NCBI RefSeq assembly: GCF_008831285.2
Contig: NC_045140.1
Coordinates: 20,458,370 to 20,522,369 of the forward strand
Direction of reading: 5' to 3'
DNA from: Nymphaea colorata
Lineage: Eukaryota; Streptophyta; Magnoliopsida; Nymphaeales; Nymphaeaceae
Length of the DNA: 64,000 nucleotides
The notes under the pieces were generated by a model, which saw only the letters and a program-made list of their open reading frames with translations, did no database searches and had not been told where the DNA came from. This document shows positions 5,131-8,694 of this stretch, one piece after another. The position numbers and the translations under genes are program-made. Numbering within the stretch: position 1 is the stretch's first letter; every line of letters starts with the position of its first letter.

Positions 5131-5162
<32 letters not shown>

Positions 5163-5165
5163 CGC
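5131..5165. repeat. (CT)n tract in the 5' leader
   Basis: About 15 CT units continue into ctcgctctgc just before the ATG at 5175. It probably lies inside the transcribed leader. Pyrimidine repeats here are common in plant 5' UTRs. Confidence 0.85.
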
Positions 5166-5174
5166 TCTGCGGCC

Positions 5175-5696
5175 ATGTCTGCCGTTGTCTTGAGATCGCA
5201 GGATTGCCTGGCGGATAGATTCGGGAAGTTGTCGATGGGCTGCCTTTCTCGGACGCCCAAGACCGGGCGGAATCGCCCTAGATCAGGCCGGAGAAAACGC
5301 AGCCCGGCGAAGTCGGATGGGAAGGACTCCTTGACGGTGAAATTTCCGGCCGCTAACCTGGTTATGGAGAGAGTTCACATCTTGAAACGGGGCGAGGCGT
5401 TGAGATACGAAGGTTCCAAGGCGGAGGAGAAGCGGCGGGCGGACGGCGATTTCCTTGTCTGCTCGACGGAGAGGATCGGGCCGGAACCCGAGTTGGTTCC
5501 CAGGAAGATCCGGCTGCCGGATATCAAGACGGGACGCCTTTCTGTGGACAGTTCGGGCCCTTACGCAGGGACTGCGTTCGAGTCGTCCCCCTCGCCGAGC
5601 TCCCTGCCTCTCCCGGCGTTTTGCAGGAAGACGAAGTCCAGATCCGAAGAAATGGCGACTAAGGATATTCGCCGGATGTTGCAGCTCGATTTCTAG
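5175..5696 (+). CDS. small protein with Edc1/PNRC2-type decapping-activator motif
   Basis: An intron-free frame of 173 codons, GC-rich unlike its flanks. The start is the first ATG after the TATA-like box and CT leader. Residues 33-50 are basic, with RSGRRKRSP as a possible nuclear localisation signal. The middle is low in hydrophobics and probably disordered. Residues 130-149 contain YAGTAF followed by SPSPSSLPLPAF. This matches the bipartite motif YAGxxF plus PSxLPxP of yeast Edc1/Edc2 and animal PNRC2, where the LPxP part docks on the Dcp1 EVH1 domain and YAGxxF stabilises active Dcp2. The last residues (ATKDIRRMLQLDF) form a short amphipathic tail recalling the C-terminal leucine motif of PNRC2. 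Plants have many small proteins of this shape, usually called uncharacterised or PNRC-like. The motif is seen directly; the decapping role is inferred. Confidence 0.8.
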   Translation: MSAVVLRSQDCLADRFGKLSMGCLSRTPKTGRNRPRSGRRKRSPAKSDGKDSLTVKFPAANLVMERVHILKRGEALRYEGSKAEEKRRADGDFLVCSTERIGPEPELVPRKIRLPDIKTGRLSVDSSGPYAGTAFESSPSPSSLPLPAFCRKTKSRSEEMATKDIRRMLQLDF

Positions 5697-5720
5697 AAGG
5701 GGATCGTTGGTGTTGGTGGT

Positions 5721-5816
5721 CAATTGGGTGGCCAATCGTTGATGTTCGGGGACAATTGGGTGGCCAATCATTGATGTTCGGAGACAATTGGGTAGCCAAT
5801 CGTCGATGTTCGTGGA
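5721..5816. repeat. three tandem 32-bp units in the probable 3' UTR
   Basis: The words CAATTGGGTGGCCAAT, CAATTGGGTGGCCAAT and CAATTGGGTAGCCAAT begin at 5721, 5753 and 5785. Each is followed by a variant of cGTTGATGTTCGGGGA. The period is exactly 32 with a few substitutions per copy. The array starts 24 bp after the stop codon. Confidence 0.9.
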
Positions 5817-7090
5817 CGATTGTGGTTCCTACTTTCTTTTGACAACGTTCTCTCGGAACGTTCTCGGTTACGAGTTTCTCCTTTATCTTTTCAACAGGAA
5901 GACTCGGAATGGGATGCAGGAGGGAGTGTGGCTGAAGAAAACTAATTGTCCTCTTACTTAGAGGTTCGATGGTTCTAATCTAGGTTTTTAGGATCTCTCT
6001 CTCTCTCTCTTTCTTTCTCTCTTCTTCGTAGTCGGTGTTGCTGTGAATATATGTTCCACGGAAGCTATGTCTGAGTCGGTGTTGCTAGGCGTGGGGACAA
6101 GATTATGTTAGCGTTTACAGGTCTGATCAGTTTGCTTTAGGGTTCAATATGTTAGGTTGCTAGGGCAATGGTCTCAGTAGTTATATGTCTGAATCAGTAG
6201 GGTGTACGTACCAATAGTTATATGATCTGAATCAGTGGGATGTAAGGATCAATACTGTGGTATAAATAGATGAATTTGTTGATTACTGCTAGCCCTGTTG
6301 CTTGCTCGGTTTTGCTTTCTCTTTTCCCAATTCCGTTTAGCTGTGAGTAAATACAACCGTGAGCGGTGAGAACGCGAAGGAGGTTATGATTGTTTTGTTG
6401 GAAGATGTTTATAGTGAAATATTGGTGCCACAGAACAGAAGTGCAAAGATCCTGAAATTTTCAAAGCGCATATTAGCGCAGGACATCTACCGCGTCGTTG
6501 ATGTTGCTTCGTGAAAGCTAGTTTATTGTCATATCAATGTATAAAGACGCATCGTTGAGCTACAACTTCTCCAAAGATGGAGGGATCTTCTTATGGCACG
6601 TCTCCTTTGTTACGAGGCTGAAACTAATTTGGTATCGCCGTATTCATTATTGCTAGCCATGCCGTGGAAGGACTTCTAAAGTGCCGAAGTTTTTCTCCCT
6701 CTAACGAGGATTCTTCTTTCTTGGATGCACAAAGATTGCCGCTCTTGAGATGGAGGCGTGTGCTTTCCCTGTCAGCCGGAAAATTTCCCGGCTAGAAGGT
6801 ATTATGCTATAAGCCGCGTCCAACCCGAAGACGGCTTCTTGGACCATGGAGACAACCTCTTAGTGGCTAAGAAAGGTATGTTTTGGGTCTTAACTTGACC
6901 TTTCTGCCGTGTAGGCCTGGGTGGTTATTGAGTCCACACGTATATCTGTCGGTGAGGCTTAACTCGTGCTGCTCTGGCTTCTTAGAAAGTGGGTCCTGTC
7001 ACCATTAGTAGTTTACTGCTTTTTACATCCCACGTGACTCCCGAGAAGCACCAGCCATTGATTTCTTTTTGCTGCCGTCTAAGGCCGGGC

Positions 7091-8028: not shown

Positions 8029-8694
8029 CTACGGGTAAGGTGGCGGGCATTGAACAGTCGCAGACGGCGGTCCTCGAAATGGCGATGGCAGTCCAGAAGG
8101 AAATTTCGGCGATCCAGGGGAAAAATTGGGAAGCAAAGGCAGCGGTAATGGCGGGAGAGTTACGTAAGGCGGCGGTGGTGCTGAGGCGGTTGGCAAGGCA
8201 GCTGGCGATTTTGGTGGTGATATGTTTGAAAGGAAAGGCATGGGCGGCAATGGTGGCAAAGGTACATAAGGCGGTGGCGGTGGTGGCTGCATAGATGACC
8301 GCGACAGTGGTGGAGAAAGATGTGGGAGCAAAGGCCTCGATGGTGGCAGAGGTACGTAAGGTGATGGTGGTGAAGATGGCAGGTGCAAAGGAGACGGAGG
8401 AGATCCCGGTGGCGATACTGTATACGGTGGCGGTGGAACTACATGGCGTCGTGGACGTTGCCGGCGTGGTGGTTGAGGGGAAGGAACAGATGCGATTGGA
8501 AGGGGAGAGGTGGGGAAAGGCCACTGCCCACAGGTCCCAAACAAGTACTGCAGAAGCGGGTCACATACTTGGCTTTCTCCATTTCCTGTCCTTCCTGGTT
8601 GCCTTCCATTTTGCCCATCAACAGCACCGCACTTTAGAAGCAAACAGAAAACTAGTTGGAGGAAAACAGTGTGGTTAGTTCCCTTCTTCTCCAT
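8029..8694 (-). CDS. secreted proline-rich protein
   Basis: A single open frame of 221 residues with a true ATG. Residues about 9-26 form a hydrophobic signal peptide (VFLQLVFCLLL core), so the product probably enters the secretory path and ends in the wall or apoplast. A short cysteine-bearing segment follows (QVCDPLLQYLFGTCGQWPF, residues 42-60). From 61 on the protein is dominated by proline, leucine and serine. The block YVPLPP recurs at 113, 143 and (as YVTLPP) 177, giving three degenerate units of about 30-34 residues, each ending near a LSPP, ISPP or FSPG word. Proline-rich or hydroxyproline-rich cell-wall proteins have this layout, but the SPPPP blocks of classical extensins are missing. 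The start and signal peptide are clear. I do not recognise a named family. The frame ends with CPPPYP and stop, and an intron near the end cannot be excluded. Confidence 0.65.
   Translation of the reverse strand: MEKKGTNHTVFLQLVFCLLLKCGAVDGQNGRQPGRTGNGESQVCDPLLQYLFGTCGQWPFPTSPLPIASVPSPQPPRRQRPRRHVVPPPPYTVSPPGSPPSPLHLPSSPPSPYVPLPPSRPLLPHLSPPLSRSSMQPPPPPPYVPLPPLPPMPFLSNISPPKSPAALPTASAPPPPYVTLPPLPLPLLPNFSPGSPKFPSGLPSPFRGPPSATVQCPPPYP

Follow-up and report, generated by a model that had tools for sequence, protein, structure and literature searches.

Does the plant Nymphaea colorata encode a protein with the bipartite motif of the mRNA decapping activators Edc1 and PNRC2, and would that protein act on the plant's own decapping enzyme? 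The question is raised by an open reading frame in the window, which is the whole 64-kb stretch of DNA analysed here (C3:20458370-20522369, from a searched genome of 408 Mb). The frame encodes a small protein with a computed pI of 10.21 and a net charge of +15, in agreement with the basic character proposed for it in the preliminary description. Its features are listed below in window coordinates, and L002, L003 and L009 denote loci elsewhere in the genome that encode related proteins.

5175..5696, + strand: predicted open reading frame including the stop codon, 173 amino acids, ATG start, one open frame (translation and Pfam PNRC match)
5175..5210, + strand: N-terminal MSAVVLRSQDCL, residues 1-12, similar to MGTEVLRPQDCL of L002 (paralogue alignment)
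5259..5312, + strand: basic stretch KTGRNRPRSGRRKRSPAK, residues 29-46 (sequence)
5463..5510, + strand: block STERIGPEPELVPRKI, residues 97-112, similar in L002 and L003 and poorly conserved in L009 (alignments)
5562..5579, + strand: YAGTAF, residues 130-135, the half corresponding to the Dcp2-activating motif (translation, Pfam and PDB-profile alignment)
5586..5621, + strand: SPSPSSLPLPAF, residues 138-149, the half corresponding to the Dcp1-binding LPxP motif (translation, Pfam and PDB-profile alignment)
5604-5615, + strand: LPLP within SPSPSSLPLPAF (translation)
5655..5687, + strand: C-terminal tail ATKDIRRMLQL, residues 161-171 (paralogue alignment)

Repeats lie on both sides of the frame. 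A (CT)n repeat of 19 copies (5131-5168) stands directly upstream of the ATG, and a tandem array with a period of 32 and 3.8 copies (5703-5822) starts right after the stop codon at 5696 and probably lies in the 3' untranslated region. RNA structure in this array was considered and rejected as not significant (fold z -1.43, with 15 of 200 shuffles equally good). An imperfect tandem repeat with a period of 38 and 2.2 copies follows at 6174-6254, and an open reading frame of 221 amino acids on the minus strand (8029-8694), with runs rich in PPPPY and SPPSP, is perhaps extensin-like. A scan of viral contigs with the window protein returned four stretches that fit a pattern, none of which was confirmed. 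Within the protein itself, the composition of the basic stretch suggests a possible nuclear-import or RNA-contact segment.

The translation of bases 5562-5621 (residues 130-149) reads YAGTAFESSPSPSSLPLPAF and covers the full 20-position Pfam model PNRC (PF15365), scoring 26.9 bits (gathering cut-off 21 bits; E 4.5e-6). No other family was matched. A six-frame scan of the window with a loosened pattern, [YWF][AS]G..F.{2,8}LP.P, gives a single hit, at this motif, and the pattern appeared in 16 of 1,000,000 shuffles of the protein. The bipartite Edc1/PNRC2 motif reported in the preliminary description is thus borne out by its order and spacing, by the Pfam match and by the paralogues described below. 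The search pattern offered alongside it, YAGxxF-x(2,8)-PxLPxP, fared worse: it finds no match in the window and misses YAGTAFESSPSPSSLPLPAF itself because P-S-S stands before LPLP, and by eye it also fails on the aligned stretches of Edc1 and PNRC2.

Comparison with chains of known structure points to the same two proteins. The single window protein retrieved five distinct PDB sequences at E values up to 10, led by S. pombe Edc1 (E 0.23 and 0.26) and followed by three unrelated AFF4 chains at 0.49-0.57. A profile built from the four paralogues retrieved four distinct sequences at E values up to 10, all of them Edc1 or PNRC2 (1.7e-4 for Edc1, 2.1e-4, 0.0047 for PNRC2, and 0.17), and no gap interrupts the motif where it is aligned to chains of Edc1 and PNRC2 from structures that contain Dcp1 (for PNRC2, up to LPxP). 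S. pombe Edc1 (C18G6.09c) has YAGxxF followed at identical spacing by SP..S.LP.P.F, with 11 of 20 residues identical by eye in a comparison limited to peptides of 26 and 41 residues, that is, to the motif region. Human PNRC2, matched as a 135-residue construct (4b6h_C), has YAGxxF and PSPSxLPxP in register with the plant protein and 11 of 18 residues identical by eye; both PNRC2 and PNRC1 carry the PF15365 motif. The plant LPLPAF resembles Edc1 in this respect, whereas PNRC2 has LPKP. For the plant protein we know of no UPF1/SMG5 link of the kind named for human PNRC2.

The genome contains a small family of such proteins. A search with the window protein gave four matches including the window gene itself; one of them (L004) covers query residues 23-71, has three internal stops, lacks the motif and was left out. 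A search with the PNRC family model gave seven matches at E values up to 10, of which four exceed the cut-off: the window gene, L002 (also on contig C3), L003 (C9) and L009 (C1), the last found by this search only. The remaining three (L013-L015) were left out of the counts. Since sub-cut-off matches also arise in 3 of 14 control genomes, weak PNRC matches are regarded as noise. One of the three, L013, lies on a small contig (C507) whose cysteine-rich open reading frames in adjoining frames look non-plant by eye, and it is a possible assembly contaminant.

All four proteins above the cut-off are encoded by single open frames (173, 182, 212 and 206 amino acids for the window gene, L002, L003 and L009; values below follow this order), and each matches Pfam PNRC by itself. 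Their alignment shows that the glycine and SPxPSSLPxPxF are kept in all four, while motif position 1 is Y, Y, W and W and position 6 is F, F, F and Y, so that both positions are aromatic throughout. The preliminary description had made its reading depend on conservation of Y, G, F and the LPxP prolines among plants; among the paralogues of this one genome, the glycine and the prolines hold and the tyrosine and phenylalanine are relaxed. Across the 20 motif codons, the six paralogue pairs have 7-11 synonymous differences, 1-7 identical codons and 4-9 replaced ones, which indicates that SPxPSSLPxPxF has been kept despite drift of the underlying DNA. Such codon counts suggest that the four loci are old copies constrained at the level of the protein. 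In the full alignment, identity with the window protein amounts to 43% for L002, 32% for L003 and 29% for L009. BLASTP of the window protein gave E values of 0.15 against L003 and 2e-4 against L009, the latter from an alignment over the tail that puts the motifs out of register; kinship of these two proteins to the window protein is thus weak outside the motif and the tail.

The tail is the less expected part of the finding. The preliminary description had noted RRMLQLDF at the end of the protein, and the observation extends to the family: AT..[LI]RR.L.[LI] stands at the C-terminal end of 4 of 4 PNRC proteins above the cut-off, separated from the motif by 11, 10, 22 and 51 residues and followed by 2, 1, 1 and 5. 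When the remainder of each protein was shuffled 100,000 times, this pattern, which was derived from these same four sequences, appeared in 0, 3, 0 and 0 of the shuffles. The tail 11-mer has a helical moment of 0.53-0.63 across the family. For the window protein this value ties with the maximum over all 11-mers, reached by an overlapping one, and the other three contain an 11-mer with a higher moment (overlapping the tail in L002 and L009, quite different in L003). The tail was thus rejected as an outstanding amphipathic segment and, given this ranking, a helix is something that we infer.

Known short helical motifs fit the tail loosely. The helical leucine-rich motif (HLM) has the core LLX-hydrophobic-L (PMC8984151), from which MLQLD of the window protein and LLRLD of L002 both depart. 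The strict NR box LXXLL is absent from the window protein (IRRML) and, among the four proteins, occurs only in L002 (LRRLL). The PNRC tail may nonetheless work like an HLM. A plant precedent is provided by URT1: its M1 motif, which resembles an HLM, is bound by DCP5 through the LSm domain (PMC7910438), and it is a guess from this analogy that the PNRC tail could bind the same domain.

The DCP2 and DCP1 of the genome, which read like plant proteins, were examined for the residues that would receive the motif. In yeast, YAGxxF contacts Dcp2 through its tyrosine, which stacks on Arg33, and its alanine, which packs on Ile96; the R33A and I96G substitutions abolish activation by Edc1, and mutations of Phe36 and Tyr92 are reported to have little effect (PMC5861098). 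In the DCP2 gene on C1 (L005 and L007), the positions corresponding to Sp Arg33 and Phe36 are occupied by Arg and Phe (aligned to 2QKL); Tyr stands at Sp 92 and Val, a conservative change, at Sp Ile96 (aligned to 5J3T). A second DCP2 locus on C12 (L006 and L008) has the same ERILFLVEQAHW stretch, with the Arg, as the C1 copy; its regulatory-domain exon lies at L008 1300-1700. This exon is the only one recognised at the C12 locus, with no Nudix exon found by patterns in the 9.9 kb searched, and the locus is perhaps a partial copy. In DCP1 (C1, L016-L018), one exon (aligned to fly and yeast Dcp1) retains Tyr and Trp within Y.F....W, and another (aligned to fly and human DCP1) retains aromatic-LLY...WFY. 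These kept aromatics may line the LPxP groove, as in human DCP1A. On these alignments, the DCP2 and DCP1 of the genome appear to keep most of the receptor residues examined.

Plant genes with the same annotation have already been named. Arabidopsis AT3G21570 is called PNRC (PMC5821449) and is given as the orthologue of a wheat PNRC gene whose expression after 6 h of cold is down in one cultivar and up in another (PMC8123233). Further PNRC genes are recorded in wheat (PMC9434867), Pinus massoniana (PMC12122422) and a Salix two-hybrid listing (PMC9176260), and a report on maize Zm00001d038160 includes one sentence that gives proteins bearing such motifs a part in mRNA decapping (PMC6850026). These 'proline-rich nuclear receptor coactivator' genes, which include wheat TraesCS5A/5B/5D copies, carry the annotation that Pfam gives the window protein and are compared with it here at the level of annotation. 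The passages that name them concern expression, trait association, co-expression or a two-hybrid listing rather than decapping assays; human PNRC is treated or cited elsewhere (PMC11530239, PMC13103063 and PMC11289641). The preliminary description knew of no plant decapping activator defined through this motif. That statement stands insofar as no plant functional test of the motif was found in the open-licence literature searched; it does not stand for the motif itself, which is catalogued through PF15365, the plant gene names and the maize remark. The family call is thus known and the link to decapping has already been mentioned for plants.

Taken together, these observations favour a small basic plant decapping coactivator of the Edc1/PNRC type that would bind DCP1 through LPLP, close DCP2 through YAG..F and recruit a partner through its tail, a reading to which we assign a probability of roughly 0.7. 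LPLPAF would tether the protein by docking on the EVH1 domain of DCP1, in its aromatic groove. YAGTAF would thread between the regulatory and Nudix domains of DCP2, with its tyrosine stacked on the conserved arginine, and would hold the enzyme in its closed, active form. The AT..IRR.L.L tail, probably a short helix, would recruit a partner such as the LSm-domain protein DCP5 or an mRNA-targeting factor, and this partner would bring the activator to particular mRNAs. In the human system, a PNRC2 motif peptide equals full-length PNRC2 in stimulating DCP2 with DCP1, and a peptide without YAG is impaired (PMC13103063). Several points count against a coactivator: the change of Phe to Tyr in one paralogue, Val in place of yeast Ile96, the weak single-protein E value for Edc1, and the basic stretch, which could put the protein in the nucleus.

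Chance likeness in a proline- and serine-rich protein is one alternative, given a short motif and a weak single-sequence PDB match in which unrelated chains reach similar E values. We consider it very improbable and reject it, since even the looser pattern is as rare in shuffles as stated above, the Pfam cut-off is exceeded and four paralogues combine synonymous drift with a common tail. An adaptor or competitor that uses LPxP only, binding DCP1 or another EVH1 domain and either bringing decapping or blocking other ligands without activating DCP2, is a more serious candidate. It would explain why most invariant motif columns fall within SP.PSSLP.P.F and why the paralogues differ from one another at the Tyr and the Phe, and it has parallels in the proline-rich sequences of Drosophila Xrn1, and possibly of PatL1, that use the Dcp1 EVH1 domain (PMC8984151). 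The invariant glycine, the aromatic residues at positions 1 and 6 in every paralogue, the unaltered YAGxxF of the window copy and the retention in DCP2 of the arginine contacted by the tyrosine nevertheless argue for a role of the first half as well, and make such an adaptor unlikely.

The name 'nuclear receptor coactivator' suggests instead a nuclear transcriptional coregulator in which the LRRLL-like tail serves as an NR-box-like helix. Human PNRC1 is described as predominantly nuclear (PMC8984151), and this proposal would also accommodate the basic stretch at residues 29-46 and a tail that is strictly LXXLL in L002 and LXXLL-like in the other three proteins. The part common to Edc1 and PNRC2, however, is the Dcp1/Dcp2-binding motif, and the window tail, IRRML, is not LXXLL. 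To our knowledge, moreover, animal-type nuclear receptors are absent from plants, and we regard this proposal as quite improbable. A more far-reaching version of the decapping coactivator is offered tentatively, as a possibility that we consider less likely than not. The genes may form a multi-gene plant family with two fixed modules, a DCP1/DCP2 clamp and a helix, AT..[LI]RR.L.[LI], onto which a plant recruiter such as the DCP5 LSm domain would dock, and may act as exchangeable units that each direct decapping to other mRNAs, perhaps in response to stress; 'nuclear receptor coactivator' would then be a misnomer that hid them.

The motif is real, conserved and catalogued, and its proposed function is well grounded. 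The points added here are a family of four members in one genome, the common tail, the receptor residues and the loosened conservation of Y and F. Plant genes labelled 'nuclear receptor coactivator' are offered a testable function; the label has been read literally as nuclear-receptor coregulation (PMC9176260) and as proline metabolism (PMC9434867). The common tail gives a second concrete handle on the recruiting partner. If the motif works as it does in yeast and humans, plants would switch on mRNA decapping through the same short motif, and this switch would either predate the divergence of plants from the fungal and animal lineages or represent a striking convergence.
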